From positions 1 to 54,017 of the forward strand of contig DASTYK010000027.1 in the NCBI GenBank assembly GCA_035764935.1: DNA of 54,017 nt. The letters are read 5' to 3'. Position 1 is the first letter of the stretch, and every line of letters begins with the position of its first letter. Made by a program: the position numbers and the translations under genes. The notes beneath the pieces are model-generated. The model made no database searches. It was given only the letters and a program-made list of their open reading frames with translations, and had not been told where the DNA came from. Source of the stretch: Longimicrobiales bacterium. Its GTDB lineage: Bacteria > Gemmatimonadota > Gemmatimonadetes > Longimicrobiales > RSA9. Below, in pieces: positions 3,588-49,100 of this stretch.

Positions 3588-3731
3588 GCCCACCTCCATC
3601 TGCGGGACCGCCCCCGAACATGGGAAGAAGCATGCCCGGTTCTGCGGCGGGGTATTTCGTCCCGCCCGGCCTTGCCGCACCCCGGGCTTCATCCCACTTT
3701 GCGCGCTCTCAGCCGATTCCTGGAGTGCTCG

Positions 3732-4211: not shown

Positions 4212-4214
4212 GCC

Positions 4215-4850
4215 GTGCGCAGCCGTCGCATCCTGATCGCGCTCGCCGCGGTCAACGCAGTCCTGATCGCCGCCCTCGGCTTCACCGTCGTGCGTGCCCG
4301 TTCCGCGGAGTGGCACGGCACGCTGCTGGACCCGCCCATGACGGCGCAGTCCTTCGAGCTGGTCTCCGCCCGCGGGCCCGTCAGCTCCGCCGACCTGCGC
4401 GGCCGCTGGACGGTCCTGTTCTTTGGCTACACCCGCTGCCCGGACGCCTGCCCGCTGACGCTGGAGAAACTGCGTCGTGTGCACGATGCGCTCGGCGATG
4501 ACGCGGAGCAGGTGCAGGTCGCCCTTGTGACCGTGGATCCGGAGCATGACACGCCCGACCGGCTCGCCGGCTACGTGGAGCGATTCGACCCATCATTCCT
4601 CGGGTTGACTGCCGACGCGCCCACGATCGAGGCAGTGACCAAAGCCTACGGGATCTACCACGCGGGCAGCGACCCTGCCGGCGCCGCGGCGGACGGACAT
4701 GCCGCACATGCCCCGCCGCGGAATGCGCTGATCGATCACACCACCCATGTCCTCGTGCTCGATCGTGACGGCCGCCTCGCCATGCTCTGGGGGCCGGAGC
4801 TCACGGCGGAGCAGATGAGCGGGGACCTGCGGCGGCTCCTGCGTCGATGA
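4215..4850 (+). CDS. SCO1/SenC/PrrC family copper chaperone-like protein
   Basis: A 211-residue membrane-anchored thioredoxin-fold protein. An N-terminal hydrophobic segment (residues 6-25) is followed by the Sco domain with C75-P-D-A-C79 in GYTRCPDACP and His175 in LIDHTTHV. These are the canonical copper ligands, so copper delivery to the CuA site of cytochrome oxidase or thiol redox are the likely roles. VTVDPEHDTP is a typical Sco segment. A His-rich insert HAAHAPPRN precedes the ligand His. The GTG start lies 3 bases after the TerB-like stop, and its stop overlaps the next start as ATGA (4847-4850). No oxidase genes are in the window. Confidence 0.9.
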   Translation: MRSRRILIALAAVNAVLIAALGFTVVRARSAEWHGTLLDPPMTAQSFELVSARGPVSSADLRGRWTVLFFGYTRCPDACPLTLEKLRRVHDALGDDAEQVQVALVTVDPEHDTPDRLAGYVERFDPSFLGLTADAPTIEAVTKAYGIYHAGSDPAGAAADGHAAHAPPRNALIDHTTHVLVLDRDGRLAMLWGPELTAEQMSGDLRRLLRR

Positions 4851-5488
4851 CCGACGCCACAGCCACGGCGACGTCGCATCCGCTCCGCGTCCTGCTCTTC
4901 GGCATCGCGGCAATCGGGCTCTCACACCTGCTGGACCCGTTCGGCTGGCGCTATTTCCACTTCGACGGGGTCTACTCCGACGACTTCGGCCGCATGCTGC
5001 GCGTCATGGGTTACGTCCCGGTGTGGCTCGCGCTGGCGATCGCATTCGTGCTGCACGACCGGCCACTCGGCCGCGGGCGCTGGTGGCGCGGGGCGACGAT
5101 CGTGGCCGGCGTCGCGGCGGCGGGCATCGCGGGGGAGCTGCTCAAGCTGCTTCTGCGGCGCGAGCGACCGCGCGCGCACGAGGGCGAGTACGTCTTCCGC
5201 TCCTTCACGGAGCGCCCGCTTTCCAGTGGCGGCCTGGCGTGGCCGAGCAGCCACGCGATCGTCGCCTTTGGCGCTGCCGCGATCCTTTCGCGGCTGTTCC
5301 CGCGCGCGCGCATCGTCTTCTGGGCCCTTGCCTGGGGGTGTGCGCTTTCCCGAGTCGCCGACGGCGCGCACTTCGTGAGCGACGTCGTGACCTCGGCCGT
5401 CGTGGCGTGGCTGGTGGTCGACCGTGTCTGGCACTTCGCCACGAAGCGCGCGCCCGCGCGCGGAACGGACGTTGCAACCCCCGCCTGA
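4847..5488 (+). CDS. PAP2 family membrane phosphatase
   Basis: A 213-residue integral membrane phosphatase with the three type 2 phosphatidic acid phosphatase motifs: K100-(x6)-R107-P108, P133-S-S-H136 and S168-R-(x5)-H175-(x3)-D179. His136 and His175 are the expected catalytic pair. About five membrane segments are visible. Likely substrates are undecaprenyl pyrophosphate or lipid phosphates, but sequence does not decide between them. The start ATG overlaps the SCO1-like stop (ATGA), indicating translational coupling. The C-terminus ends in an Arg/Ala-rich tail. Confidence 0.9.
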   Translation: MTDATATATSHPLRVLLFGIAAIGLSHLLDPFGWRYFHFDGVYSDDFGRMLRVMGYVPVWLALAIAFVLHDRPLGRGRWWRGATIVAGVAAAGIAGELLKLLLRRERPRAHEGEYVFRSFTERPLSSGGLAWPSSHAIVAFGAAAILSRLFPRARIVFWALAWGCALSRVADGAHFVSDVVTSAVVAWLVVDRVWHFATKRAPARGTDVATPA

Positions 5489-18434: not shown

Positions 18435-18714
18435 CACCGCCGAGGCGCGGAGGGCGCCGAGTTCCATAGCGCAGACAACCCAGTGAACACAAAGGCCTGC
18501 GCGATCGCACAGGCCTTTTCGTAGGGAAGCATTCATTCTGTAGTGGTTTCCCCGCCGCGAGGCGACGACGCGGATCAGCTTCCGGGGCGGCGCAGCAAAC
18601 TGCAAACAAAAAAGGAAGCCGACGCAGTCAGCTGCAGGCATTCCGCGAACGCTCCGTGTCCGCTGTGACCTCCGTGTGAAAAAACTCCGCGCTCTCTGCG
18701 CTCTCAGCGGTGAT
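18435..18714. repeat. Dispersed intergenic repeat element, copy A
   Basis: The 347 bases between fur and speA contain no credible gene. They hold CACCGCCGAGGCGCGGAG on the plus strand at the left (18435-18464). At the right (18652-18714), two related units read on the minus strand, for example CACCGCTGAGAGCGCAGAG. A perfect hairpin lies between. An internal core with CGGCGCAGCAA is shared with copy B. Short frames across it, such as 18402-18749 minus, are artefacts of the repeat. Confidence 0.75.
18491..18518. terminator. Bidirectional hairpin terminator between fur and speA
   Basis: The 9-base-pair stem AAAGGCCTG/CAGGCCTTT encloses a 10-base loop that itself contains the palindrome GCGATCGC. 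A-rich sequence on the left and TTTT on the right allow it to serve both convergent genes. It sits inside repeat copy A. Confidence 0.7.
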
Positions 18715-32818: not shown

Positions 32819-33667
32819 ATGCCGCGTACGAACCGCTGGGCCGCGCTGGCCCTGATGATTCCGCTGGCGATGCTGCCGGCAGCGTGCGGCGACAACGGAG
32901 ACGAGCGGGCCGCGCTGGAGCAGGACGAGCTCGAGCGCGAGCTGGACCTGGCGCTGCAGGGAGATACGCTCGACGGCACGTTCCAGGACACCGCCCAGTC
33001 GATGGACACGGTGCCCGAGGCGGCGGCGCCCGCGCCGGCGACGCCTCGGCCCGAGGCACCGCGTGCGTCGACGCCGCGTCCGGCGCCGTCCAACAACACG
33101 CCGGCGCCCGCGCCGCGTCCGGCTCCCCGGCCGACCACGGCCACCGTGCAGGCGGGTACGACGTTCGCGCTCAGCCTGAACGAGGAGCTGTCGACGGAGC
33201 GCAACCAGGCGGGTGACGGCTTTACCGCCACGCTGTCGGAGCCGATCCTGGACGCGAACGGCGACGTCGCAATCCCGGCCGGCGCCACGGTGCGTGGTCG
33301 CGTGACCAAGTCCGCGAAGTCCGGCCGTGTCGGTGAGACGGCGGTGATCACGGTTGCGTTCGAGGCGGTCAGTTTCAACGGCCGCAGCTACCCGCTGCAG
33401 GCCACCGTGGTCGAGGCAAACCCGGAGCGCCGCAACCGCACGCCCACGAGTGAGCAGGTCGCCAAGGCCGCAGGTGGTGCCGCCGCAGGTGCGGTGCTGG
33501 GTCGCGTGCTCGGCAAGAGCACCAGCTCGACGATCAAGGGCGCGGTCATCGGCGCCGCGGCCGGTACCGCGATCGCCATGGGCACGGCGGACGTCGATGC
33601 AGTGCTGCCCGCGGGCTCGCGGATGGTGATCCGGCTGGACGCGCCGGTCGAGGTGCGGCGGACCTGA
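32819..33667 (+). CDS. Glycine-zipper envelope lipoprotein
   Basis: A 282-residue exported protein. The signal ALALMIPLAMLPAAC ends in a lipobox-like site. An acidic stretch (DNGDERAALEQDELERELD) leads to a Pro/Ala-rich linker (~65-110). A beta-domain follows (TFALSLNEELSTERNQAGDGFTATL ... IPAGATVRGRVTKS). The C-terminal glycine zipper GGAAAGAVLGRVLG and GAVIGAAAGTAIA probably inserts in or lies on a membrane. Similar beta-domains occur in acidobacterial envelope proteins of unknown role. ATG at 32819 follows AGGAG at 8 bases. Expression appears driven from a sigma-54-like promoter, and a hairpin follows the gene. Confidence 0.78.
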   Translation: MPRTNRWAALALMIPLAMLPAACGDNGDERAALEQDELERELDLALQGDTLDGTFQDTAQSMDTVPEAAAPAPATPRPEAPRASTPRPAPSNNTPAPAPRPAPRPTTATVQAGTTFALSLNEELSTERNQAGDGFTATLSEPILDANGDVAIPAGATVRGRVTKSAKSGRVGETAVITVAFEAVSFNGRSYPLQATVVEANPERRNRTPTSEQVAKAAGGAAAGAVLGRVLGKSTSSTIKGAVIGAAAGTAIAMGTADVDAVLPAGSRMVIRLDAPVEVRRT

Positions 33668-33695
33668 CGTCTCGGACTTCGTCTACCAACTGCTT

Positions 33696-34090
33696 CTACC
33701 ACAGAGCGCACAGAGGGCACTGAGCCTGTGCCGCGGGAATACGAAGGGTGCTGTCCACATGGGCAGCACCCTTCTTCATGTCGAAGCGTTTCCACGGGAA
33801 CTTCAATTTTACCGCTGAGAGCGCGGAGGTCGCTGAGAACGACGCTGAGTGTTCTTCGAGTAACGCAACCCCTGCGTCCGATTCAGGATCCCGCTTCTGG
33901 TTTGCATTTCCCGGAATAACGACGCGCCTGCTGATTCAGGCTGATCGGGCGGCCGGCGCAGCAACTACAAAAAGTGTTTGCCGTACCGGGGGCCCGCCAG
34001 AAACGCGGAACCCCTCAGCGTCGTTCTCCGCGCCTCGGCGCCTCCGCGGTGAAGAAACTCCGTGTTCTCAGTGCCCTCGGTGGTTAGAAG
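33696..34090. repeat. Dispersed intergenic repeat element, copy B
   Basis: The 432 bases between the lipoprotein gene and ggt hold no credible gene. Plus-strand units lie at 33696-33726 (ACCACAGAGCGCACAGAG) and 33808-33850 (ACCGCTGAGAGCGCGGAG). Minus-strand units fill 34014-34090 (ACCACCGAGGGCACTGAG on that strand). GAGAACGACGCTGAG occurs in inverted orientation on both sides of the core. A hairpin sits at 33743-33774 and a CGGCGCAGCAA core at about 33953, as in copy A. Frames such as 33748-34251 arise from the repeat. Confidence 0.75.
33743..33774 (+). terminator. Hairpin in repeat copy B
   Basis: An 11-base-pair perfect stem GAAGGGTGCTG/CAGCACCCTTC encloses a 10-base loop, 75 bases after the lipoprotein stop. 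The flanks are only weakly U-rich (TTCATG), so it may terminate inefficiently. Confidence 0.55.
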
Positions 34091-34099
34091 AAAAGGGGA

Positions 34100-35938
34100 T
34101 CAGTAGCCAGCTGCCTTTCCTCCCGTCCGCGGATCGAACGCCCCGCGCCAGCGGCCATCCAGGCGCAGCAGCGCCGGTGAGGTGCCGATGCCGCCGATCT
34201 CCTCCAGCTCGTGGCCGTAGCGCTGCAGCGTGCTCAGCACGTCCGGCGTGAAGCCGCCGGTCTCGTAGCGCAGCACGTCCGGGAGGTGCTGGTGATGGAT
34301 GCGGGGCGCGGCGACGGCGGTGGTCACGTCCATGTCGTGGTCGATCATGTTGGAGATGACCTGCCAGGTCGCGGTAATGATGCGGGGGCCGCCGCGGGCG
34401 CCGGCGAGGATGACCGGGCGGTTGGTCTCGGGCTCGAGCACGATCGTAGGCGTCATCGCCGACAGCATCCGCTTTTCCGGCTCGATCGCGTTCGCCTCGC
34501 CCTGCACGAGACCGAACATGTTCGGCTCGCCCGGCTTGGACGTGAAGTCGTCCATCTCGTCGTTCAGGACGAACCCGGCGCCGCTCACGGTGACGCCGGA
34601 GCCGTAGAGGTCATTGATCGTGGTCGTGAGCGCGACCGCGTTGCCGTCCTCGTCGACGACGGAGAAATGCGTCGTGTGCTCGGGCTCGTCGAAGTGAAGC
34701 GAGCCGGGACGCACGTCGGCGGAGGGCGTGGCGCGCCGCGGCGTGATCTGGCTGCGGAGCTGCGACGCGTACTGCTCCGAGAGGAACTGTGGCCGCGGTA
34801 CGTCGACGAAGTCGGGGTCGCCCAGGTAGTGGTTGCGATCGGCGAATGCGCGGCGCATCGCCTCGGCGGTGTAATGCAGCGACTCGGGCGAATGCCAGCC
34901 GAGCGCACGCAGGTCGTAGCCCTCGAGGATGTTCGCGATCAGCGCGAGCGTGAGGCCGCCCGAGCTGGGCGGTGGCATGGAGATGACCGTGTGGCCGCGG
35001 TAGAGGAAGACGACGGGGTCGCGCCACTTCGCCTCGTAGCGCCGCAGGTCCTCGTGCGTGATGATCCCGCCACCGCGCTGCATCTCGGCGACGATCAGAT
35101 CGGCTGTCTCACCCTCGTAGAAACCGGCCGGCCCGTGCTCCGCGATGCGGCGCAGTGTTGCCGCGAGTTCCGGAATGCGCCAGCGCGTACCCTCGGCGAT
35201 CGGCGTCCCGCCCGGCAGGAACAGCGTGCGTGATCCCTCGAACTGTCCGAGCCGCTCGGCCGCTCCCGCAATGGATCCGGCCAGCTCCGCGTCCACGATG
35301 AAGCCCTCTTCGGCGAGGCGGATCGCCGGTGCTACCACGTCCTCCCAGGGCATGCTGCCGAAGCGTTCGTGTGCGGCATACAGTCCGGCGACCGCGCCCG
35401 GTACGCCGGACGCCAGGTATCCGACCACCGATCGGTCCGTCGTGTTGCCCTGCGCGTCCAGGTACATGTCGCGCGTGGCGGCGAGCGGCGCCTTTTCCCG
35501 GAAGTCGAGCGACGCCGTCGTGCCGTCGGCCAGGCGCGTGACCATGAAGCCGCCGCCGCCGAGGTTGCCTGCCTCGGGGTAGACGACCGCGAGTGCGAAC
35601 GCGGTAGCAACCGCGGCGTCGACCGCGTTGCCGCCCTCGCGCAGGATGCGCACGCCCGCATCGGTCGCGAGCGGCGCATCGCTGGTCACCATGCCGCGTT
35701 CGGCGACGGCGGGCGTCGCATCGAGCGCGAAGCGCCACTCGTCGGGAACCGCCTGCGTCACCTCCGTCGGCGGTGTCGGCGGCGCTTCGGCAAAGGGGGC
35801 ACAGGCGGCGAGCAGAATTGCGGCGGATGCAGACACATGCGTCAGCATGTGCCGGAGTGCGCCGGTGCCCGGGAAACCTCTGCGTGAGAAGACCGCGCCT
35901 CTCCGGTGGTCGTCCTGCTGTGCGGGACTGCGCTTCAA
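34100..35938 (-). CDS. ggt: Gamma-glutamyltransferase, exported
   Basis: A 612-residue gamma-glutamyltranspeptidase that cleaves glutathione and other gamma-glutamyl compounds outside the cytoplasm after self-processing. The nucleophile is Thr422 in HTTHFSVVDEDGNAVA. Other landmarks are TSDAPLATDAGVRILREGGNAVDAAVAT, PPPSSGG and AGARGGPRIITATWQVI. TTG at 35938 is chosen because GGAGG lies 5 bases upstream; the internal ATG at 35848 has no ribosome site. The resulting N-terminus holds SRRGF, a Tat-like motif, before a hydrophobic segment ending LLAAC, so a Tat-exported lipoprotein is possible. It follows the M20 amidohydrolase by 22 bases on the same strand. Confidence 0.92.
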   Translation of the reverse strand: MKRSPAQQDDHRRGAVFSRRGFPGTGALRHMLTHVSASAAILLAACAPFAEAPPTPPTEVTQAVPDEWRFALDATPAVAERGMVTSDAPLATDAGVRILREGGNAVDAAVATAFALAVVYPEAGNLGGGGFMVTRLADGTTASLDFREKAPLAATRDMYLDAQGNTTDRSVVGYLASGVPGAVAGLYAAHERFGSMPWEDVVAPAIRLAEEGFIVDAELAGSIAGAAERLGQFEGSRTLFLPGGTPIAEGTRWRIPELAATLRRIAEHGPAGFYEGETADLIVAEMQRGGGIITHEDLRRYEAKWRDPVVFLYRGHTVISMPPPSSGGLTLALIANILEGYDLRALGWHSPESLHYTAEAMRRAFADRNHYLGDPDFVDVPRPQFLSEQYASQLRSQITPRRATPSADVRPGSLHFDEPEHTTHFSVVDEDGNAVALTTTINDLYGSGVTVSGAGFVLNDEMDDFTSKPGEPNMFGLVQGEANAIEPEKRMLSAMTPTIVLEPETNRPVILAGARGGPRIITATWQVISNMIDHDMDVTTAVAAPRIHHQHLPDVLRYETGGFTPDVLSTLQRYGHELEEIGGIGTSPALLRLDGRWRGAFDPRTGGKAAGY

Positions 35939-35960
35939 GTGAACCTCCGATCCGTGAATC

Positions 35961-37142
35961 TCATCCGCGTCGCAGCCGCTCGATCGCGCAGGCGGCGAGC
36001 GCCGTCGCGCCGAGCGGCAGCACGCGCTCGTCGATGTCGAAGTCCGGGCTGTGGTGCTCGCGCGGCCGCTCCAGTGCCGCGCCGAGCCAGAAGAACGTGC
36101 CGGGCGCATGCTCGAGCAGCACCGCGAAATCCTCGGACGGCATGGAGGGCTCCTGCTCGCCCACGGCGTCCGCACCGAGCGCACTCGCTACGGCCTCGCG
36201 TGCGAGCGCGGTCATGGCCTCGTCGTTCAGCACCGGCGGGTAGCCGTCGCGGAACTCGACCTTCCCGCGCCCGCCCAGTGCGTTCACCACGTCGAACGCG
36301 CGCGTGATCTCGCGCTCCAGGACATCGCGCACGTCGCTGTCGAAGTACCGGATCGTGCCGCTCATGTCGACGCGCGCGGCCAGGATGTTTTCCGCGTCGC
36401 CGCCGCTGATCCGACCGATGTGGACGACGGCCGCCGCGCCGGGCGGAATGCGACGCGCCACCGCGTTCTGGACGGCAAGAATGGCGTGCGCGGCGAGGAC
36501 GATGGCATCGACGCCTTCGTGAGGGCGGCCGGCGTGTGCGCTCTGCCCGTGGACAGTCGCGCGCAGCGTGACGGAGCCGGCCATGTACGGCCCGGCGCGC
36601 ATGAAGCAGCGGCCGAACGGCAGGTGCGCGCCGACGTGCAGGCCGAAGACCGCGTCGACACCCTGCATCGCGCCGTCCTCGACCATGCGCATCGCGCCAC
36701 TGCGGTTCTCCGCATCGGACATCTCTTCGGACGGCTGAAAGAGCAGGCGCACGGTACCGGCAGGCAGCTCCCTGCGCTCCTGCTGCCGGGCGAGGATCTC
36801 GGCGGCGCCCGCCAGCATGGCGACGTGCGCGTCGTGTCCGCACGCGTGCATGACGCCATCGATGGTCGAGCGGTACTCGACGTCGTTCTCCTCCTGCATC
36901 GGCAGCGCGTCCATGTCCGCGCGCAGGGCGACGGTCGGTCCGTTGCCGTTGGCCAGCTCCGCCACGATGCCCGTCCGTCCGACGCCGGTCCGCACGGTGT
37001 AGCCGAGCTCCTCGACGAGCCGGGCGGCGGTTGCCGCGGTCCGTGTTTCGCGGAAGCCCAGCTCGGGATGGCGGTGCAGATCGCGCCGGAGCCCGGTCAG
37101 CTTCGGCTGGAGCGTGGTGGCGTGCTCGAGCAGGGTGGTCAT
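35961..37142 (-). CDS. M20-family amidohydrolase (hippurate/IAA-amino acid hydrolase-like)
   Basis: A 393-residue metallopeptidase of the M20D type that removes acyl groups from N-acyl amino acids. Metal and catalytic segments are MHACGHDAHVAML, FQPSEEM and the C-terminal PSEDFAVLLEH. RRDLHRHPELGF near residue 20 and the dimerisation domain GQSAHAGRPHEGVDAI are typical. Typical substrates include N-acetyl or hippuryl amino acids; the real one is unknown. ATG at 37142 is used, though its ribosome site is weak. A possible promoter (TTGCCC at 37197-37202 and CAGATT at 37174-37179, minus strand, spacer 17) lies just upstream in the gap shared with murQ. Confidence 0.88.
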   Translation of the reverse strand: MTTLLEHATTLQPKLTGLRRDLHRHPELGFRETRTAATAARLVEELGYTVRTGVGRTGIVAELANGNGPTVALRADMDALPMQEENDVEYRSTIDGVMHACGHDAHVAMLAGAAEILARQQERRELPAGTVRLLFQPSEEMSDAENRSGAMRMVEDGAMQGVDAVFGLHVGAHLPFGRCFMRAGPYMAGSVTLRATVHGQSAHAGRPHEGVDAIVLAAHAILAVQNAVARRIPPGAAAVVHIGRISGGDAENILAARVDMSGTIRYFDSDVRDVLEREITRAFDVVNALGGRGKVEFRDGYPPVLNDEAMTALAREAVASALGADAVGEQEPSMPSEDFAVLLEHAPGTFFWLGAALERPREHHSPDFDIDERVLPLGATALAACAIERLRRG

Positions 37143-37210
37143 GGCGGCCCGTCCACGGTAAGATTGGTCGCGCAATCTGGTCGGGATTCGTAGAGGGGGC
37201 AAGGTCCCAG

Positions 37211-38128
37211 GTGGCTGATAGAAAACAGCTCGACCCGCGGCTGACGGAGCAGCGGAATCCGCGCAGCATGCGTATCGATCAGCTCTCGACGATCGAAATC
37301 GTCGACCTGATCAACGCGGAGGACCGCATGGTCGCCGAGGCGGTCGGGGAGGAGCGCGCCGCGATCGCGCGCGCGGTGGATATCGTGGTCGACTGCTTCC
37401 AGAACGGCGGTCGACTTTTCTATGTGGGCGCCGGCACGTCCGGCCGCCTCGGCGTGCTCGACGCGTCCGAGATGCCGCCCACGTACGGCACCGACCCGGA
37501 GATGGTGCAGGGCATCATTGCCGGCGGGTATGCCGCGCTGGTGCGCGCACAGGAAGGCGCCGAGGACAACCCCGCGGATGGTGCGGCAGTGATGGACGAG
37601 CGCGGCGTGCGCGCGGGCGACTTCGTGCTCGGCATCGCGACGTCCGGCACGACACCGTACGTGCACGGCGCGCTGCGTCGCGCACGGGAGCTGGGTGCGC
37701 GCACCGGCTTTCTGCTGTGCACCTATCCATCGCAGGAGCTGATCGCGACGCACGACGTCGTCATCGCGCCGCTGGTCGGTCCCGAGGTCATCACCGGCTC
37801 GACGCGCATGAAGGCGGGCACCGCGACCAAGATGGTGCTGAACACGATCACCACGTCGGCGATGGTCCGGCTCGGCAAGGTGTACGGCAACCTGATGGTG
37901 GACCTGCAGGTCACGTGTGAGAAACTGCGCGACCGTGGCCAGCGCATCCTGGTGGAGACACTGGGCGTGGAGCGCGGCCATGCCGCGGACCTGCTCGAGC
38001 GTGCGGGCGGACACGTGAAGACGGCGATCGTGATGGGCAGCCTGGACGTGGATCGCGACGAGGCGCGCCAGCGCCTGCAGGACGCGGGCGGCGTGATCGC
38101 GAGCGTCGTCGGAGACCTCGGTGCCTGA
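37211..38128 (+). CDS. murQ: N-acetylmuramic acid 6-phosphate etherase
   Basis: A 305-residue SIS-domain enzyme that splits the lactyl ether of MurNAc-6-phosphate to give GlcNAc-6-phosphate and D-lactate, in cell-wall recycling. Diagnostic segments are TEQRNPRSMRID, VGAGTSGRLGVLDASEMPPTYG (with the catalytic Glu) and VGPEVITGSTRMKAGTATKMVLN. Length matches MurQ. The GTG at 37211 is preceded by AAGG; the open frame upstream overlaps the divergent gene. It overlaps anmK by 8 bases, so the two steps are co-translated: AnmK makes the MurNAc-6-phosphate that MurQ consumes. Confidence 0.95.
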   Translation: MADRKQLDPRLTEQRNPRSMRIDQLSTIEIVDLINAEDRMVAEAVGEERAAIARAVDIVVDCFQNGGRLFYVGAGTSGRLGVLDASEMPPTYGTDPEMVQGIIAGGYAALVRAQEGAEDNPADGAAVMDERGVRAGDFVLGIATSGTTPYVHGALRRARELGARTGFLLCTYPSQELIATHDVVIAPLVGPEVITGSTRMKAGTATKMVLNTITTSAMVRLGKVYGNLMVDLQVTCEKLRDRGQRILVETLGVERGHAADLLERAGGHVKTAIVMGSLDVDRDEARQRLQDAGGVIASVVGDLGA

Positions 38129-39275
38129 CGGGCTGCGCGCGATCGGCCTGATGTCGGGCACGTCGCTGGATGGTATCGATGCGGCGCTGGTGCGCTTCAC
38201 GGGCCCGCCCGACGCCCTGCACTGGGAAATCGAGGCGTTCGTGAGCGTGCCGTTCCGCGAGGGGCAGCGCACGCAGATCCACGACGCGATCATGCACGGC
38301 GGTGCGCCCGGCATCTGCATGCTGCACGCGCAGCTCGGCGAGTGGCTGGCGGATGCCGCGCTCGAGGTGTGTCGCGCCGCCGGGGTTCGACCGGACCAGG
38401 TGCACGTGATCGGCTCGCACGGCCAGACGGTATGGCATGAGCCGCCGACGGCGGAGCGACGCGGCGCGACGCTGCAGCTCGGCGACCCTGCAACGATCGC
38501 GGAGCGCACCGGCATCAGCGTGGTGAGCGACTTCCGTGCGCGCGACATGGCGGCGGGAGGACAGGGTGCACCTCTGGTGCCGTGGCTCGACCGGCAGCTC
38601 TTCTCGGTGCCCGGGCGTGCGCGCGTGCTGCAGAACATCGGCGGCATGGCGAACCTGACGCGCGTGCCGCCGCAGGGCAGTGACGAAGCATTGCTCGCGT
38701 TCGACACCGGCCCCGGCAATGCACTGATCGATGCCGCGGCCGAGCTCGCGACCAGCGGCGGACAGTCGTTCGACCGCGATGCCGAGCTTGCGAACAGCGG
38801 CAGCGTGGATGATGCGCTGCTCGAGGAGCTGCTCGCGCACCCCTTCCTGGATGCGGAGCCGCCCAAGTCGACGGGGCGCGAGGTGTTCGGTCGCCCGTTC
38901 GTGCAGCGCATCGTCGAGCGTCGGCCGCCGGAGTCGCATGCCGACTGGTGCGATCTCATCGCGACGCTGACCGTGTTCACCGCGCGCACGATCTCCGATG
39001 CAATCGAACGGTGGGTCAAGCCGCTCGACTACGACGAGGTGGTGGTGACCGGCGGTGGCGCGCGCAACCCGTTGCTCATGCGGCTGCTGCGCGAGGAACT
39101 CGCCCCGGTGCCCGTGCACGACGGCAGCGTGCTCGGCGTCGACCCCGATGCCAAGGAGGCGCTCGCATTCGCCGCGCTCGCGTGGGCCCATCTGAACGGC
39201 CTGCCCGGCAACGTGCCCGAGGCCACGGGCGCCGCCGGTGCGCGCGTGCTCGGCAGTCTTACGCCCGGTCGATGA
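38121..39275 (+). CDS. anmK: Anhydro-N-acetylmuramic acid kinase
   Basis: A 384-residue kinase that opens the 1,6-anhydro ring of anhydro-MurNAc while phosphorylating it, producing MurNAc-6-phosphate. Landmarks are GLMSGTSLDGIDAALV at the N-terminus, IGSHGQTVWHEP, FDTGPGNALID and VTGGGARNPLLM. The length is typical. The GTG start overlaps murQ by 8 bases and the stop overlaps the next start as ATGA. An anhydro-MurNAc importer is needed for this route; the symporter at 42060 is a candidate, by inference only. Confidence 0.95.
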   Translation: MPDGLRAIGLMSGTSLDGIDAALVRFTGPPDALHWEIEAFVSVPFREGQRTQIHDAIMHGGAPGICMLHAQLGEWLADAALEVCRAAGVRPDQVHVIGSHGQTVWHEPPTAERRGATLQLGDPATIAERTGISVVSDFRARDMAAGGQGAPLVPWLDRQLFSVPGRARVLQNIGGMANLTRVPPQGSDEALLAFDTGPGNALIDAAAELATSGGQSFDRDAELANSGSVDDALLEELLAHPFLDAEPPKSTGREVFGRPFVQRIVERRPPESHADWCDLIATLTVFTARTISDAIERWVKPLDYDEVVVTGGGARNPLLMRLLREELAPVPVHDGSVLGVDPDAKEALAFAALAWAHLNGLPGNVPEATGAAGARVLGSLTPGR

Positions 39276-40990
39276 GCCAGCGCCAGGAGCGGCGCCGCCA
39301 GCAGCCCTCGCGTGCGCCGCGCAGCGAAGCGGGCGCCCGGTCCGATCCGCAGCGCGTGCGCGCCGCTGATCGCTTCCGCAGCGCCGCGCACCGGCACGCG
39401 ACCTCCATCCTCGTCGCGCTCGGCGTCGTGCATGCACTCCTGTCACTGCTTGCACTCGATCCCACGCCACACACCGGCGGCGACAACGCCGGCTACATCA
39501 GCCTCGCCCGTTCACTGCTCGAGCGCGGCGCATACCTGGAACTGTGGGACCCGGCGGAGCCGATCCACACGAAGTATCCGCCGGTGTTTCCGCTGCTGCT
39601 TGCCGCTGCCATGGCGATCGGCATACAGCCGTGGATCGGACTCAAGCTGATCGTCATCGCGTTCAGCGTCATGGGCGTCGCATTCACGTTCCTGTGGATC
39701 CGCGCGCGCGGACGGCCGCTGCTCGCGACCGGTGTCGGTACCATCGTCGCGCTCTCACCCGGCATCCTGCTGCAGAACCACTGGGTGCTCTCCGACGTGC
39801 CGTTCTGGGGACTCACCATGCTGGCGCTCTGGGCGGTCGAGACGGCACCGCGCCACCGGCTCGGCGGGCGCGCCCTGCTGGCGATCCTCGTCCTCGTCCT
39901 CGCCTACTTCACACGCTCCGCGGGACTGCCGCTGCTGCTCGCGGCCGGGCTCTGGCTGGCGTGGCGCCGGCGCTGGAAGCAGCTCGCACTGCTGGCCGGG
40001 ATCGCGGTGCCGCTGGCCGCGTGGTGGGTGCTCCGCGCGCGGAGCGCGGGCGGCATCGACTACACGGGCGAGCTGTGGATGCGCAACCCGTACGATCCTG
40101 CCGCGGGCACGATCGGCGTGCTCGATCTGTTTCCGCGCATTGGCGAGAACCTCGTCGCGTACGTCACGACGCACCTTCCTTTCCTGCTGACCGGCAGAGC
40201 GGGGTCGACCGGCCTGCTGCTCTCCGTCGCGGTGACGATGCTCGCGCTCGGCGGCTGGGCCTGGCGCGTGGCGGCGTGGCGTCGCCTCCGTCCGGGGGAG
40301 CTCGTGCTGCCGCTCTACATGGGCGTGATCCTGATCTGGCCGGCCGTGTGGGCCGGTGACCGGTTCCTGCTGCCCGTGTACGGCGTGATCCTGTTCTTTG
40401 CGGGCGACGCGCTGGTGCATCTCGCGAAGCGACTGCGTGCGCCGCTGGCGTTCAGCGCGGGCGCGGCGGCCGTCGTGGTCATCATGCTGCTGCAGCTGCC
40501 CTCGGCGGCGGTCGCCGTGCGCATCGGCCGGCAGTGCCAGGACGCATACGCAGCGGGTGCACGCTATCCGTGCCTGCCGCAGCCGTGGCAGAACTACTTC
40601 GCGCAGTCCGAACGCCTGCCGGAGCTGCTGCCGGACGGTGCGGTCGTCCTCAGTCGCAAGCCACGGCTCACCCATGCCCTGAGCGGTGGCCGCACCTACA
40701 GCATGACGTACCCGTTCACGCCGGACCCGCAGCAGTTCTTTTCCTTTGCAGACTCGATCGGGGCGCGCTACCTGCTGTTCGACGAGCTGGGCGCACTGGC
40801 GCAGAACTACCTCGTGCCCGTGCTCACGCGCCGGCCGGATGCCTTCTGCATCCTGGACGCGACAGGCCCGACGGGCACCGCGCTCTTCGGCATCCGCGAG
40901 AACGCACTCGCGGGGACGGAGCGGGAGCCGGGCAGCGGGCCGATCAACTTCGAGATCTGCGACGCGTCCTACCGTCGCACAGCCGAGTAG
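39272..40990 (+). CDS. GT39/ArnT-like membrane glycosyltransferase-family protein
   Basis: A 572-residue polytopic membrane protein with 10-12 hydrophobic segments after a basic N-terminal tail (RQERRRQQ). The first extracytoplasmic loop, TPHTGGDNAGYISLARSLLERGAYL, carries the acidic D-N pair and the R-x-L-L-E-x-G context typical of GT39/PMT/ArnT-like lipid-sugar-dependent glycosyltransferases. HTKYPPVFP follows, as in ArnT relatives. The C-terminal ~130 residues form a soluble extracytoplasmic domain with several Cys. Donor and acceptor are unknown. ATG overlaps the anmK stop (ATGA), so it is in the murQ-anmK operon. Confidence 0.78.
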   Translation: MSQRQERRRQQPSRAPRSEAGARSDPQRVRAADRFRSAAHRHATSILVALGVVHALLSLLALDPTPHTGGDNAGYISLARSLLERGAYLELWDPAEPIHTKYPPVFPLLLAAAMAIGIQPWIGLKLIVIAFSVMGVAFTFLWIRARGRPLLATGVGTIVALSPGILLQNHWVLSDVPFWGLTMLALWAVETAPRHRLGGRALLAILVLVLAYFTRSAGLPLLLAAGLWLAWRRRWKQLALLAGIAVPLAAWWVLRARSAGGIDYTGELWMRNPYDPAAGTIGVLDLFPRIGENLVAYVTTHLPFLLTGRAGSTGLLLSVAVTMLALGGWAWRVAAWRRLRPGELVLPLYMGVILIWPAVWAGDRFLLPVYGVILFFAGDALVHLAKRLRAPLAFSAGAAAVVVIMLLQLPSAAVAVRIGRQCQDAYAAGARYPCLPQPWQNYFAQSERLPELLPDGAVVLSRKPRLTHALSGGRTYSMTYPFTPDPQQFFSFADSIGARYLLFDELGALAQNYLVPVLTRRPDAFCILDATGPTGTALFGIRENALAGTEREPGSGPINFEICDASYRRTAE

Positions 40991-40997
40991 CTCCAGC

Positions 40998-41921
40998 ATG
41001 GACACGCGCAGGATCGGCCCGCTCGAGGTCTCCGTCGTCGGCCTCGGGTGCAACAACTTCGGCAAGCGCCTCGATGCGGCGCAGACGGAGCGCGTCGTGC
41101 ACGCAGCCCTCGATGCCGGCATCAGCTTCTTCGATACCGCGGACCGCTACTCGGCCGGCAGGAGCGAGGAGTATCTCGGGCGCGCACTGCGCGGCCGGCG
41201 CCACGAGGCCCTGATCGCAACCAAGTTCGGCAAGCCGGTCGGCGACGCGCCGGCGAGTGCGACCGCCGCGTACATCCGGCAGGCCGTGGATGCCAGCCTG
41301 CGCCGGCTCGGCGTCGACCACATCGACCTGTACCAGATCCACGAGCCGCACCCGGAGGTGCCGATCGCCGAGACGCTGGGCGCGCTCGATGAGCTGGTGG
41401 GCGCGGGCAAGGTGCGCGCGATCGGCTGCTCCAATTTCTCGGCACAGCAGATCGAGGAGGCGGAGTCCACCGCGCGTGCGTCCGGTGGTGCGCGCTTCGT
41501 CAGCGTGCAGAACGAGTACAGCCTGCTCGTGCGGGAGCCCGAGCAGGATGGCGTGCTGGACGCGTGCGCGCGCTACCAGCTCGCGCTGCTGCCGTTCTTC
41601 CCGCTCGCGAGCGGGCTGCTGACGGGCAAGTACCGGGTGGGCCGGCCGCTGCCGGAGAACACGCGGATCACGAGCGGCTGGCTCGACACGCATTACACCG
41701 AAGCGAACCTGGCGCGCGTGGAGCGACTGAGCGCCTTTGCGCAGGCCCGGGGCCACACGCTGCTCGAGCTCGCGTTCGCCTGGCTGCTGCACCGGGGCGA
41801 GGTTGCGAGCGTGATCGCCGGCGCGACCCGGCCCGAGCAGGTCAGGGCGAATGCGGCCGCCACGCGCTGGCAGCTGAGCGCGCAGGAGCTCGCCGAGGTC
41901 GACGCCGCACTGGCCGGATAG
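40998..41921 (+). CDS. Aldo/keto reductase
   Basis: A 307-residue cytosolic NADPH-dependent oxidoreductase with the full catalytic tetrad: D46, Y51, K76 and H115 (FFDTADRY, TKFG, YQIHEPH). GCSNFSA and the C-terminal VIAGATRPEQV cofactor loop are typical of the YajO/Tas-like group. The aldehyde or ketone substrate is unknown. ATG at 40998 lies 7 bases after the preceding stop, in the murQ-anmK operon. In-frame codons upstream overlap the membrane protein and are ignored. Confidence 0.92.
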   Translation: MDTRRIGPLEVSVVGLGCNNFGKRLDAAQTERVVHAALDAGISFFDTADRYSAGRSEEYLGRALRGRRHEALIATKFGKPVGDAPASATAAYIRQAVDASLRRLGVDHIDLYQIHEPHPEVPIAETLGALDELVGAGKVRAIGCSNFSAQQIEEAESTARASGGARFVSVQNEYSLLVREPEQDGVLDACARYQLALLPFFPLASGLLTGKYRVGRPLPENTRITSGWLDTHYTEANLARVERLSAFAQARGHTLLELAFAWLLHRGEVASVIAGATRPEQVRANAAATRWQLSAQELAEVDAALAG

Positions 41922-41984
41922 CGCCGAGTCGTTCAGTCGCAGCCGCCAATGGCCGATGCCGAGGCCGTTGCCTGCAGCGAACCT

Positions 41985-42026
41985 GCAAGGCATACGCCTT
42001 GCCTCTGCCTGCGCCCGACCGCAGGC
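41985..42026. other. Two tandem hairpins before the second symporter
   Basis: GCAAGGC/GCCTTGC (41985-42002, four-base loop) and GCCTGCG/CGCAGGC (42007-42026, six-base loop) form two perfect 7-base-pair stems in the 138-base gap. No U tract follows, so they could act as a processing or partial-termination site; this is inference. Confidence 0.5.
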
Positions 42027-42059
42027 ACGTTCCGCAGCGGAGCCGGGAGGGGATAGCGG

Positions 42060-43862
42060 ATGATCGGAATCGACTGGGCCGTCGTGCTCGTCTACATGCT
42101 CGGCACACTGGCGCTCGGTATCTGGCTGAGCCGGCGCGCCTCCGGCTCACTCGCGGACTTCTTCGTGGGCGGCCGCGGCATCTCCTGGTGGCTGGCCGGC
42201 ACTTCCATGGCCGCCACGACCTTCTCCATCGACACCCCGCTCTACGTCGCCGGCGTCGTCGGCACGCGCGGCATCGCCGGCAACTGGGAGTGGTGGGCGT
42301 ACGGCATCGCCCACGTGATCATGATCTACATGTTCGCGCGCCTGTGGCGCCGCGCCGAGATCATCACCGACAACGAGCTGACGGAACTTCGCTACGGCGG
42401 CACGCCCGCCGCCACGCTGCGTGCGGTCAAGGGCTTCCTGTTCGCCGTCGTGATCGGCTCGATCGGCGCCGGCTACGCGATGCTCGCCATGGTCAAGGTC
42501 GTCGATGCGCTCCAGATCTTTCCGTCGCTCGGCCTCGACCTGGGTGACAACGGCAAGCTCTGGGCGATCATTTTGATCAGCGTGTTCGTGCTGGTCTACG
42601 CGGGTGCCGCCGGTCTGTGGGGCGTGGTCGCGACCGACTTCTTCCAGTTCTTCCTCGCGCTCATCGGCGCGATCATCGTGGCCTGGGCGGCAGTGGCGCA
42701 CGTGGGAGGGCTGGACGACGTCGTGCGTCTCGCGCAGGCCAATACCGAGTTCGACGCGCTCTCCTTCACGCCGTTCCACTTCGGTGGTGATACGCTCATC
42801 AGCTGGTCGCGAACCGCGGGCATTACGGCCACGACGTTCTTCGCGTACGTAACGGTGCTATGGTGGGCGTTCCGCCGCTCGGACGGCGGCGGCGAATTCA
42901 TCCAGCGCATCTCGTCAGTGAAGACAGAGAAGGACGCGGAGAAGGCGGCCTGGTTCTTCAACATCATGCACTACGTCGTGCGCACCTGGCCCTGGATCCT
43001 GGTCGCACTGGTCGCGCTGGCGCTGTACCCGGACCTCGAAGACCCCGAGCTCGGCTACCCGATGCTGATGCTCGACTTCCTGCCGGCAGGCCTGCTCGGA
43101 CTGGTCGTCGCGTCCCTGCTCGCCGCGTTCATGAGCACGATGTCCACGCTCATCAACTGGAGCGCGAGCTACATGACCAACGACCTGTACGCGCGCTTCA
43201 TGCGGCCGCACGCCTCGCAGAAGGAGCTGGTGTTCGCCGCGCGCGTCGCGTCCGTCATCGTGCTGATCATCGCGGGCTTCGCCGCGTTCCAGTCCCAGTC
43301 GATCGCGACCGTCTACCGTCTCATCCTGGCCATCGGCACCGGGCCCGGTCTCGTGCTCATCCTGCGCTGGTACTGGTGGCGAATCAACGCGTGGGCGGAG
43401 CTGGCCTCCATGGTCGCGGGCTTCATCGTCGGCTTCCTCACCTCCGTGGAGAACCCGATCTACTCGCTCGTCATCGACGACTTCGGACTCCGCCTGATGG
43501 TTACCGCCGGAATCACCCTGCTGATCTGGGTGCCCGTCATGCTGCTGACGAAGCCGGAGAACGATGAGAAGCTGGACGCGTTCTATACGCGCGTCCGCCC
43601 CGGCGGCCCCGGCTGGGCACGTCAGCGTGAGCGCACCGGCATCGCACCCGCACAGGACCTCGCCTCCGACATCCAGCGTGTACTCGCCGGCGTGCTGATC
43701 CTCTTCGGCGCGATGTTCGCCGTGGGCGGCGTCCTGCTGCTGCGCTGGGGCACGGCGATCATGATGACGATCATGCTGGTGGTGGGGCTGGTCTGGCTGA
43801 AGAAGCTCGGTGCAACGCAGATCGCGCCGCCGACCGCCGAGGCGCCGACGCATCCGTCGTGA
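42060..43862 (+). CDS. Sodium/solute symporter (SSS family), long form
   Basis: A 600-residue inner-membrane transporter of the SSS family with about 13-14 membrane segments. Landmarks are FFVGGRGISWWLAGTSMAATTFSIDTPL near TM2 and LAAFMSTMSTLINWSASYMTNDLY around TM8, where the sodium-site Ser/Thr residues lie. A cytoplasmic loop with RPGGPGWARQRERTG and a further C-terminal pair of membrane helices extend it beyond the 541-residue homologue at 1638. The ATG follows GGGAGGGGATAG. Position within the murQ-anmK run makes a muropeptide sugar or related substrate plausible but unproven. Repeat copy C begins directly after its stop. Confidence 0.9.
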   Translation: MIGIDWAVVLVYMLGTLALGIWLSRRASGSLADFFVGGRGISWWLAGTSMAATTFSIDTPLYVAGVVGTRGIAGNWEWWAYGIAHVIMIYMFARLWRRAEIITDNELTELRYGGTPAATLRAVKGFLFAVVIGSIGAGYAMLAMVKVVDALQIFPSLGLDLGDNGKLWAIILISVFVLVYAGAAGLWGVVATDFFQFFLALIGAIIVAWAAVAHVGGLDDVVRLAQANTEFDALSFTPFHFGGDTLISWSRTAGITATTFFAYVTVLWWAFRRSDGGGEFIQRISSVKTEKDAEKAAWFFNIMHYVVRTWPWILVALVALALYPDLEDPELGYPMLMLDFLPAGLLGLVVASLLAAFMSTMSTLINWSASYMTNDLYARFMRPHASQKELVFAARVASVIVLIIAGFAAFQSQSIATVYRLILAIGTGPGLVLILRWYWWRINAWAELASMVAGFIVGFLTSVENPIYSLVIDDFGLRLMVTAGITLLIWVPVMLLTKPENDEKLDAFYTRVRPGGPGWARQRERTGIAPAQDLASDIQRVLAGVLILFGAMFAVGGVLLLRWGTAIMMTIMLVVGLVWLKKLGATQIAPPTAEAPTHPS

Positions 43863-43868
43863 GGGTTA

Positions 43869-44090
43869 TTTCTACCACGGAGCGCACCGAGAGCACTGAG
43901 AACGGACCGACGTGGCGTGACATCCGGAAAGATGGGGAACAACAGCGGTCGCGCTGCTGTTGGCACTGACAGAACTGCGCGCGTCCAACACGCGAGGAGC
44001 GATTCGCAAATGAGATTCGAGATGGATTCCGGCGCGTCCCTCCTTCCGGCAATGATGTCTGTGCGCTCCGTGTTCTCTGTGGTGAATTCT
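43869..44090. repeat. Dispersed intergenic repeat element, copy C
   Basis: A plus-strand unit at 43869-43905 (ACCACGGAGCGCACCGAG) and a minus-strand unit at 44056-44090 (CACCACAGAGAACACGGAG on that strand) flank a hairpin: CAACAGC at 43940-43946 pairs with GCTGTTG at 43956-43962. The right unit lies inside the signal-peptide coding region of the next gene. Confidence 0.7.
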
Positions 44091-46142
44091 GTACTCGCAT
44101 GCGTGCTGGTCGCTGCGCTGGCCGCATGCGCATCAGCCCCAACCACGCGTCCCGGTGCCGGCGAGCTACCTGGAACGCCTGACACGGTCGCGGGCGAACG
44201 CGTCAATGCGCTGCCCCCGGTCCCTGTCGTCGACGGCGCGCTCGCGCTCGACGTCGTCTATCCCGTCGAAGGCCAGACTGTCGCAACCGACTCCACCTTC
44301 GTCTTCGGCAGCACCGGCAGCGGCCGGACACGCCTCACGATCAACGGTACCGCCGTCGATGTCGCACCGAACGGCGCTTTTCTCGCGTTTCTCCCGGTCC
44401 CGCGCGAGGGGGTCTACCGCCTTGAGGCGCTGAAGGACGGGGCGACCGCGAGCCTGCAGCTCAGCGTGCAGGTGCCGCAGCCGGACGTGCGCACCGGCGG
44501 TGCAGCGATCGTTGCGGGGAGCACGTATCCGGGCGGCGCCTGGGCAGTACAGCCGGACCAGGCGATCGAGGTCGGGTTCCGGGGGACACGCGGCGGGCAT
44601 GCGTGGCTGGTGCTTCCGGGCGGGGCGCGCGTGGCGCTGCACGAGGTGACCGGAACGCGCGACAGCGGCGATCGCAACTTTGTCGCCGATCCTGCCGCGG
44701 GCACGCTGCAGGCCGCGCCGTGGTCGCGCTACGAGGGCGTGCTCGTGCCGCGACCTCTGGCGAGCGGCGACACCAGCATCGCACAGCCGCTCATCGGCGG
44801 CGTGGGCGCGCGTGCGGGGCAGGGTGTCGTGGAGCCTGATGCCGGGCAGGCGCCGGACGTGGCGCGTGCTGCGGTGCTCGGCGAGCCCGTCGCGGGCGCA
44901 CCGGCGGTCGCGGCTGCGCCGGCAGCCAACGACGTCGCAGGTGATGCGTACTTCGAGCTGATCGTTGGCGCCGACACGGTGCGCTCACCGCTTCGGCTGA
45001 ACCTGCGAGTGCTGGATCCCGTGATGCCGCGCGTCGCGGTGGCGAGCGGCCCGCTCGAGGCGGGCCCGGACTGGGAGGTCCGCGGGCGGCCGCACACGTC
45101 GGGGCCGTTCCACTGGTTCTGGCCGCACGGCACGCGCCTGCAGATCGTCGAGCAGCGCGGTGACATGCTGCGCGCGCGGCTGACGGAGACGCTTTCCGCA
45201 TGGGTGCCGGCAGCTGACGTGCGGCTGCTGCCTGCGGGCACGCCAGCGCCGTTCGCGACGATCGGTGGCGTGCGGATGGTGCACCGCCACGACGCGATCG
45301 ACGTGCACGTCCCGATGGCGGAGGCCCTGCCGTTCCGGGTGGACGAGTCCGACCACACGCTCACGATCGACGTGTACGGCGCGACCAGCACGTCGAACTT
45401 CTTCCAGTACGGACAGCTAGATCCGCTGATCCGGCGTGCCGAGTGGAGCCAGCCGGACGACGACATCTACCGCATCACGCTGCACCTGGCGCAGCCTGTG
45501 TGGGGGTACGAGTCGTACCGCGCGTCCAATGGCGACCTGGTCGTGCGCGTGCGACGTCCGCCGCCGATCGATCCGGACCGGCCGCTGCGCGGCCTGCGCA
45601 TCGCGGTGGACGCCGGTCATCCGCCGGCGGGCGCGACCGGCCCGACGCGGCTGAAGGAGGCGGACGCGAACCTGTGGATCGCGCAGGCACTGCGGCCGAT
45701 GCTCGAGCAGGCGGGCGCGCACGTCATCATGATCCGCCCGGACACGGCGGCCGTGGCTCTGGGCGCCCGTCCGCAGATGGCCGCCGACTCCAACGCGCAC
45801 GTGCTCGTGTCGATTCACAACAATGCGTTCCCGGACGGCGTCAACCCCTTCGAGAACAACGGCACCAGCGTCTACTACTTCCATCCACGCTCTGCACAGC
45901 TCGCACAGCACGTGCAGCGCGAATTGCTGGATGAGCTGCGGCTGCGCGACATCGGGATCGGCCGCGCCGACCTCGCCCTTGTCCGGCCGACATGGATGCC
46001 TGCGGTGCTCAGCGAGACGATGTTTCTGATGATCCCGCAACAGGAGGCTGCATTGCGGAACCCGGACGTGCATCGTCGCATTGCCGAAGCGCACCTGCGC
46101 GCGCTCGAGTCGTTCCTGCGCGAACGGGCCGTCGCGCAGTAG
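44010..46142 (+). CDS. N-acetylmuramoyl-L-alanine amidase lipoprotein
   Basis: A 710-residue exported lipoprotein: signal with lipobox LAAC40, a long beta-rich region (~65-520) with an SH3-like part, and a C-terminal Amidase_3 domain. Its zinc ligands are H537 (DAGHPP), E550 (LKEADANL) and H603 (SIHNNA), with catalytic E669 (LSETMFLM). It cleaves the amide between MurNAc and the stem peptide of peptidoglycan. ATG at 44010 is preferred because GAGGAG lies upstream; ATGs at 44052 and 44055 are alternatives, and the GTG at 43917 is unlikely. The leader is built partly from repeat copy C. It fits the nearby murQ-anmK recycling genes. Confidence 0.85.
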   Translation: MRFEMDSGASLLPAMMSVRSVFSVVNSVLACVLVAALAACASAPTTRPGAGELPGTPDTVAGERVNALPPVPVVDGALALDVVYPVEGQTVATDSTFVFGSTGSGRTRLTINGTAVDVAPNGAFLAFLPVPREGVYRLEALKDGATASLQLSVQVPQPDVRTGGAAIVAGSTYPGGAWAVQPDQAIEVGFRGTRGGHAWLVLPGGARVALHEVTGTRDSGDRNFVADPAAGTLQAAPWSRYEGVLVPRPLASGDTSIAQPLIGGVGARAGQGVVEPDAGQAPDVARAAVLGEPVAGAPAVAAAPAANDVAGDAYFELIVGADTVRSPLRLNLRVLDPVMPRVAVASGPLEAGPDWEVRGRPHTSGPFHWFWPHGTRLQIVEQRGDMLRARLTETLSAWVPAADVRLLPAGTPAPFATIGGVRMVHRHDAIDVHVPMAEALPFRVDESDHTLTIDVYGATSTSNFFQYGQLDPLIRRAEWSQPDDDIYRITLHLAQPVWGYESYRASNGDLVVRVRRPPPIDPDRPLRGLRIAVDAGHPPAGATGPTRLKEADANLWIAQALRPMLEQAGAHVIMIRPDTAAVALGARPQMAADSNAHVLVSIHNNAFPDGVNPFENNGTSVYYFHPRSAQLAQHVQRELLDELRLRDIGIGRADLALVRPTWMPAVLSETMFLMIPQQEAALRNPDVHRRIAEAHLRALESFLRERAVAQ

Positions 46143-46152
46143 CAGCCGAGCC

Positions 46153-49100
46153 ATGCTGCGGTTGCGACGAGCCGCGCTTGCTGCACTGAGCTGCTGTGCG
46201 CTCTCCCTGGCCGGAGGCGCACCCGCGGTGGCGCAGGTGGATCCCGGCGCCACGTACCGCACGCTCACGACGTCGCACTTTCGCGTCACGTACCAGGACG
46301 GCCTCGAAGCACTGGCGCGGCATGCCGCCGGACGTGCGGAGATCACCTTTGCGATCCTGTCACGCACGCTCACGAGCCCGCCCGGGCTGCCGATCGACAT
46401 CGTCATTGCCGACGACCGCGACGTTTCCAACGGCATCACCACGCCGCTGCCGTCGAACCGCATCTGGATCTACGCCAGGCCGCCGGTCGAAACGCCATCG
46501 CTCGCGTTCAATCACGACTGGGTGGACCTCGTCATCACGCACGAGCTTGCCCACGCCTTCCACCTGGACGCGCACGGTCCACTCGGTCGTGTGCTGCGCA
46601 CGGTCTTCGGGCGCGTGCCGTTCACCTGGCCCGTGTTCCCGGCGCTGGGGACGCCGCTCTGGTCGATCGAGGGACTCGCCGTGCAGGTCGAGTCGGCGTT
46701 GACCGGGTTCGGCCGCATCCATGGCACCTGGCACGACGCCGTGGTCCGCACGGCCGTGCTGGCCGGTGCGCCCGATCCGATCGACCGCGTAAGCGGCTCC
46801 ACGCCGATCTGGCCCGGCAACGAGCGTGTCTACATCTACGGATCGCTCTTCCTCGACTGGATCACGCGCACGTACGGCGACTCCGTGCCGTCCATGCTCG
46901 TGAACGAGACTGCGGACGCCTGGCTGCCACCGGCCCTCTTCTTCGATCGGATTCCCCGTGCGACTACCGGGCAGACGTTCACGAGGCTCTACGACGCCTG
47001 GCTCGACTCGCTGCGTACGGAGTACACCGCCCTCGCGGACTCCCTCCGGCGCGACGGTCTCACCCGCGCGGCCGTACTGACCGCGGACGGCTACCGCGCA
47101 GCGCATCCGCGCTTCTCGCCCGATGGCCGTCGCATTGCCTACGCAGCCGCGGACGGCCGCACCGTCGCACAGACGCGCATCATCGATGCACATACCGGTC
47201 GCCAGCTCGCTGCAACTCGCCGCAACAGTCTCGCGTCGCTCGCGTGGCTGCCGGACGGCAGCATCATCACGTCACAGCTCGAATGGCAGGACGCGGCGCG
47301 CCTGTACTCCGATCTGTACCGGATCGACGAGCGCGGACGGGAGCAGCGGCTGACGCGCGGTGAACGGCTGCAGCACCCCGACGTATCGCGCGACGGGCGC
47401 CGAATCGTGGCCGTCGCCAACGAGGGAGGCAGCACCAGCATCGTGCTTCTCGACTACGCCGCCGGACGCATCCTTGCCCGGCGCACGATCGTACCGCCGG
47501 CGTCGCACGTGCAGTGGGCCCTGCCGCGCTTCTCGCCCGACGGCAGCAGGATCGCAGTGTCGCGCAGCAGCGGTGGCGTCTACCAGGTCGTGCTGCTCGA
47601 CACGGACGGCAACGTGCTGCGCGAGATCACAGGCGACGCCGCGCTGGACATGGGGGCGACGTTCTCGCCCGACGGCAGATGGCTCCTGTTCAGCTCCGAC
47701 CGGTCCGGTATCGCCAACCTCCTGGCGGCGGACCTGCACCGGCCGGACGCGCCCATCCTTCAGGTGACCAGCGTGCTCGGTGCCGCGTACGAGCCCGACG
47801 TGGCGCCGGACGGCAGCGCCATCGTGTACAGCGAGTATCACGCGGACGGCTTCCATGTCGTCCGCATTCCCTTCGAGCCCGACACGTGGCGCGTTGCGCC
47901 TGCATCGGCGATCGAGCCAGGCAGGCCTGCCGTCAGTGCCCAGGATGCGCGACAGCGCTGGAACGACAGCAAGGACGGCTCGCGGGCGACGATGTTCGAT
48001 GCGATCGCCGTCGCCGCCGATACGGCCGTGCTCGGGGAGGATACGTACAGCCCGTGGCCCACACTCCGGCCCTACTACTGGCTGCCGCTCGCCTGGAGCC
48101 AGGAGGACGTCGGCACGTTCGTCGGCGCCTCCTCCTACGGCACGGACGTCGTCGGAAAGAACGCATGGAGCGCGGCACTGTCCGTTGCAACGTCCAGCGG
48201 GCGAACCGCCGGTGAGGTGGCCTGGTCGTACGCAGGCTTCCGCAACCCGGTGCTGACAGCAGGCGTCACCCGCGACTGGGACCGCATCGGCTTCGTGCGC
48301 CTGCCGCAGGACACGTCGCTGATCCGGCCCGTGGTCGAACGCGAGGACGCGCTCCTCGCCCGACTCTCGTTCGTGCGACAGCGCGCGCGGCGCGCGGTGA
48401 GCGCGACCATCGGTGGCGAGCTCGTACGCCGCAGCCGCACCATCGAGGACGGGCTCGGCGCCACGCTCGTCGATCGGTCCGACGACCTCGCCGGCATCGT
48501 CGCCAGCGCAGGGCTTGCCACGTCCCGGGCTCAGCCGTTCTCCATCTCGCTCGAGGACGGCGTATCCCTCTCGCTCACCGGTCGGCGACGCTGGGACCGC
48601 TCACCCGACGTCCGCGACGCGAGCTACACCGAGATCACCACGCACAACGCGCTCTACCGGTCCCTCGACCTGCCCGGGTTCTCACGACACGTGCTCGGGG
48701 TGCGCGCCAGCGGGCTGCACCGCAGCGGCAACGGGGCCACACCATCCTCCATCGGCGGCGCCAGTGGCATCCTCCTCGCCGCACCCATCGACCTGGGTGT
48801 CGGACCGGGCACACTGCTGCTGCCCGTGCGCGGGTTTGCCCGCGGTGTGCGCGCCGGTACCAGCGCCTGGACCGCCAGCGCCGAGTACCGCTTTCCGATT
48901 GCCGCCGTCGGCCGTGGCGTCAGGTTGCTGCCCGTCTTTGTCGATCGCGTGAGCGGATCCGTCTTCGCGGATGCAGGCGACGCATGGTGCTCCGATGACA
49001 TCGCCGGACGGTACCTCCGCTGCATGCGCACGAGTCCCGGCTCACCACTGCTGTCCGGCGGCGCGGAACTGAGCCTGGATCTCGGCTTCTTCGGCTACGG

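Follow-up and report, generated by a model that had tools for sequence, protein, structure and literature searches.

The window analysed here is a 54,017-nt stretch of a Longimicrobiales genome (contig DASTYK010000027.1, positions 1 to 54,017 of the forward strand). Positions 42060–46142 hold a sodium:solute symporter gene and a predicted lipoprotein N-acetylmuramoyl-L-alanine amidase gene, and the entire gap between the two is occupied by an element of approximately 220 bp (about 43869–44090). The features of this junction are as follows, in window coordinates:

42060–43862, plus strand: sodium:solute symporter gene, the upstream neighbour (PF00474, E 2.1e-32; list of open reading frames)
43859–43867, plus strand: what may remain of the ancestral amidase start (GTGAGGGTT, with a GTG overlapping the symporter TGA), suggested by overlaps in four syntenic orthologues
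43869–43900, plus strand: left arm of the element (TTTCT ACCACGGAGCGCACCGAGAGCACTGAG), 43874–43900 matching the arm consensus at 20 of 20 fixed positions and preceded by a T-rich flank that starts at about 43869
43901–44056, plus strand: element interior, unique in the genome; with 43863–44095 as BLASTN query, other copies match over the arms only
43940–43962, plus strand: central 10-bp hairpin CAACAGCGGTCGCGCTGCTGTTG, from RNA folding
43994–43999, plus strand: Shine-Dalgarno-like GAGGAG, 10 nt 5' of ATG 44010, read from the sequence
44010–44012, plus strand: most likely present-day start codon ATG, from the Shine-Dalgarno-like site, coding score and list of starts
44010–46142, plus strand: predicted lipoprotein amidase gene (PF01520, E 2.4e-33; Amidase_3 domain at residues 531–700)
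44057–44090, minus strand: right arm of the element (repeat copy C), read on the plus strand as SVRSVFSVVNS
44091–44129, plus strand: native hydrophobic core and lipobox VLACVLVAALAAC, with the Cys codon TGC at 44127–44129 and comparable cores in orthologues

About 6 nt separate the symporter stop codon from the left arm. On the minus strand, positions 44057–44083 read ACCACAGAGAACACGGAGCGCACAGAC, which agrees with 19 of the 20 fixed positions of the arm consensus ACCACNGAGNNCACNGAGNNCACNGAG, and the outer flank of this right arm (GAATTC) resembles the flanks of other copies (TAATTCACCAC, TCATTCACCAC). The original prediction had taken this copy for a solitary unit, but it is the right arm of an inverted pair whose left arm lies at 43874–43900. 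The RNA folding of the element was mildly better than that of shuffled sequences (z −1.68). Rfam gave no credible match within 33500–46200, and neither a terminator nor a promoter was found in the spacer between symporter and amidase by a consensus scan.

The element belongs to a repeat family. The core motif ACCACNGAGNNCACNGAG has 53 exact matches in the 3.83-Mb genome under study (G000, a draft of 195 contigs), while the reversed control has none, and so its abundance is not due to chance. The arms are 27 nt long and consist of three 9-nt units (CACNGAGNN), with copies mostly arranged as inverted pairs, plus then minus (n = 24 pairs, spanning 41–428 bp). As short dispersed elements with terminal inverted repeats they agree in structure with MITE-like bacterial elements such as ERIC, YPAL, NEMIS and RPE; conservation of the full-length sequence between copies was not found, outer and inner arms being common to them but interiors failing to match. 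The richer copies carry inner CGC-type arms. No clear target-site duplication was seen, either at the amidase copy or in the family, the mean longest word shared between flanks being 3.17 against 2.59 in shuffled flanks, a value reached by 5.7% of shuffles. Maintenance of the hairpin by covariation between the arms was considered and rejected, as the variable positions hardly exceeded shuffled partners (2.63 versus 2.32, fraction 0.11).

To locate the arms relative to genes, a simple codon-usage gene caller was used. Among the 59 intergenic arms of G000, 31 lie in convergent gaps, 28 in tandem gaps and none in divergent gaps, although the latter make up approximately 15% of the intergenic bases sampled. 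A stop codon is faced on the outer side by 46 of the 59, at a median distance of 14.5 nt. The copy at the amidase gene follows this habit at its left end, with its right end entering the next gene. Location is less strict in G004, where four arms lie in divergent gaps; a further G004 candidate (L217) was rejected as a likely spurious gene call. Elsewhere in the window, copies at 33698–34084 and 18645–18711 adjoin the ends of gamma-glutamyltransferase and arginine decarboxylase genes. In two tandem gene pairs (L110, 2693–2728; L087, 11156–11197) the right arm stops 8–14 nt before the next start codon, with the element forming the whole 5' leader. It should also be noted that in the copies of G084 (L199–L208) the arms enclose a GC-rich hairpin flanked by runs of A and T, like bidirectional terminators.

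The strict 27-mer has a patchy distribution: of 298 genomes in the phylum, 13 contain it, seven of these in many copies. It was also present in at least 120 stretches of viral contigs, some of which may be cellular. An origin as a RAYT-mobilised REP element was rejected, with no Y1 transposase (PF01797) detected in G000, G002 or G004. Searches of the open literature with exact sequence strings, long or short, did not find the family.

The effect of the element on the amidase gene was examined through its reading frame. Codons 44058–44090 encode S V R S V F S V V N S, followed directly by V L A C V L V A A L A A C, which bears out the original prediction that the minus-strand repeat is read in frame immediately before the hydrophobic core and the lipobox. 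The symporter stop codon (TGA, 43860–43862) lies in the amidase frame, which is open only from 43863, and as a result every plausible amidase start falls inside the element. The leader would therefore owe its start codon, its n-region and some of its hydrophobic segment to the element. The start most likely in use is ATG 44010, judging from its sequence context: the mean coding score per codon is −0.305 upstream of 44010, scoring as non-coding, versus −0.10 over 44010–44090, scoring as neutral. The alternative starts ATG 44052, ATG 44055 and GTG 44061 all lie within the element as well and would also give a good lipoprotein signal, with a better n-region charge (+1, compared to 0 from ATG 44010 owing to its E and D residues). 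The predicted leader has a positive n-region with an Arg codon at 44064, a hydrophobic core with a best 12-residue Kyte-Doolittle mean of 2.96, and a lipobox of the pattern [LVI][ASTVI][GAS]C (here LAAC), from which it is inferred that the amidase is exported and lipidated. That repeat DNA contributes part of this predicted leader is regarded as quite likely.

Symporter and amidase genes adjoin in six other genomes of the family, from six genera, and the distance from the symporter stop codon to the lipobox Cys is 264 nt here versus 95, 44, 44, 107, 89 and −52 nt in these relatives. Four of the six show a stop/start overlap between the two genes (TGATG, GTGA, ATGA, ATGA). A GTGA-type relic of such a start may persist here, although chance alone often places a start triplet across a TGA. 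Leaders of orthologues are ordinary (MRTRPLALLCLAALAAC in G001, VKRTGAVLFVALLAMAC in G008) and have comparable hydrophobic cores (LALLCLAALAAC in G001, VLFVALLAMAC in G008), with a lipobox conserved in those read. SVRSVFSVVNS was absent from every orthologue leader read, and none of the orthologues examined combines the same leader with absence of the repeat. As a separate observation, the amidase leader in another genus (G003:C125, L003) contains a tandem peptide repeat, FRATTFT-FRATTLT-FRATTLA. In a contig scan for a same-genus orthologue, the sole match was a relative at 33% identity. When 43864 is joined to 44091 the result is GTGAGGGTACTCGCATGC, translated as MRVLACVLVAALAACAS, which resembles the orthologue leaders; this junction is plausibly the empty site before insertion, as judged from other genera whose proteins are about 50% identical.

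The explanation proposed is that a palindrome-ended dispersed element of approximately 220 bp, made of two inverted arms of 9-nt CACNGAGNN units and a variable interior, inserted at the symporter/amidase junction within the first few amidase codons. This would have parted the ancestral overlapping start from the signal-peptide core and brought the right arm into one reading frame with the native hydrophobic core and lipobox. Translation would now begin inside the element, most likely at ATG 44010, and the start codon, the n-region with its Arg adjacent to the hydrophobic segment, and the beginning of that segment would all derive from the element. Taken as a whole, this explanation is considered quite likely to be correct. 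We infer that the change was an insertion and not a deletion, and that the 220 bp probably arrived as one unit, although its interior matches no other copy.

It could be argued that the repeat is essentially 5' untranslated sequence, with the gene starting at or after 44079 and the frame open across the repeat by accident. An array read as TCN GTG NNC cannot hold a stop in that frame, and so the open translation of the arm, which is stop-free by construction in the amidase frame, is uninformative; the neutral coding score of the leader points the same way, and a study of REP elements cautions that REPs placed at N-termini are in many cases extragenic copies annotated wrongly (PMC3733652). At this locus that warning is answered by the closure of the amidase frame at the symporter stop. 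Starts from 44070 to 44082 would give a leader lacking positive charge, and those at 44079 and 44082 would still come from the repeat. Between the repeat arm and the Cys codon there is a single start codon, GTG 44103; its product would begin MLVAALAAC, and these 8 uncharged residues before the Cys are too few for a signal peptide and lack the charge of one. The true start downstream of 44090 that would have undermined the original prediction was accordingly not found. With the lipobox conserved in the orthologue leaders read, an untranslated repeat is judged unlikely.

The arms were also found within other genes. In the nicotinate-nucleotide adenylyltransferase gene nadD (L108 = G000:C168:1-4061, gene at 1903–2568), which is the only NadD match in G000, the whole 88-bp element (431–518 of L064) lies in frame, giving an insert of about 31–38 residues. 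This insert is absent from 12 aligned orthologues, two of which (G011 and G003) have other long linkers. The gene for the error-prone polymerase DnaE2 (L090 = G000:C99:175-5192, 1756–5001, minus strand) carries a long in-frame insert with three arms in a variable linker, and arms were detected in the same DnaE2 linker in a second genus (G011:C20:21667-21829). Read from the sequence alone, an S-adenosylmethionine hydrolase gene (L093, G000:C126:2234-7407) ends inside an arm at 2648–2674, with the C-terminus ...GTAVNHREH. A further fusion flagged by the gene caller (L096) was rejected, a downstream start being preferable there and giving a signal peptide (MPRLRLIPLIAGTLLAGAMAG).

These copies bear on whether the amidase leader was selected for better export or added regulation, as the exaptation put forward in the original prediction would imply. 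The amidase gene is intact, its uninterrupted product being 48–54% identical to the best near-full-length orthologues, and starts 44052–44061 would give one Arg followed by a long hydrophobic stretch, where the native-type counterpart is reconstructed as MRVLACVLVAALAAC. However, in NadD and DnaE2 the reading frame differs between arms and the resulting peptides are unrelated, which suggests tolerance of an almost stop-free repeat rather than selection for one peptide. An insertion that was tolerated, with the native start lost and element-borne starts rescuing expression, would be sufficient and fits the data equally well. Of the exaptation, the contribution of repeat DNA to the predicted signal peptide stands, and adaptive recruitment to a selected new function is judged improbable. 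It is more doubtful still that arms and spacer are ancestral and the short overlaps of the relatives arose by deletion: all six syntenic relatives, in six genera, have no such spacer, and the strict motif is patchy in the phylum. Finally, a repeat-induced misjoin is conceivable in a draft of so many contigs, but with the gene order conserved in six other genomes and the frame intact across the junction it has very little probability.

The family can be compared with known systems. In Yersinia, the palindromic sequence YPAL/RU-2 is reported to make up part of the signal peptide predicted for a putative exported protein at locus YPO1552 (Delihas 2007, PMC2229807). As in the amidase, a short repeat is fused in frame and forms part of a predicted signal peptide, but YPAL/RU-2 is a distinct element of ~168 bp proposed to make a new small protein, whereas here a conserved lipoprotein amidase would have had its start and n-region replaced. 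Rickettsia palindromic elements are dispersed both in frame inside conserved protein genes and between genes (PMC2229807, PMC10969869), and the NadD and DnaE2 copies resemble them in the former. They belong to another lineage and, compared by description only, are reported to encode a conserved peptide, unlike the arms described here, which are read in different frames and enclose interiors that are not conserved. REP/REPIN elements with RAYTs and TIRYT-linked terminal inverted repeats share with the present arms inverted pairing, an extragenic location downstream of genes or between convergent genes, and occasional intragenic copies, REPs also being found inside replication and repair genes (PMC3733652). 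The present family differs in its 27-nt arms of three 9-nt units, with no GTAG/CGTC tag recognised, and in the lack of a Y1 transposase noted above. The repeat family appears to be undescribed, while the kind of effect is already known.

It is tentatively suggested that these repeats form a family of palindromic elements that invade proteins, is patchily distributed and has so far gone undescribed, with the amidase as an insertion that re-founded the start of a conserved gene. On either strand the 9-nt arms hold almost no stop codons, and in one frame GTG recurs every 9 nt, so that an element inserted at the start of a gene might perhaps bring its own start codon and signal-peptide n-region. 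Automatic annotation would overlook such inserts or make spurious proteins of them. With its syntenic comparisons, the amidase is a clear case of a mobile-looking repeat rewriting the start and export signal of a conserved gene, and, considered alongside the inserts in NadD and DnaE2, it suggests that repeat families invading proteins are not confined to those known in Rickettsia and the enterobacteria.
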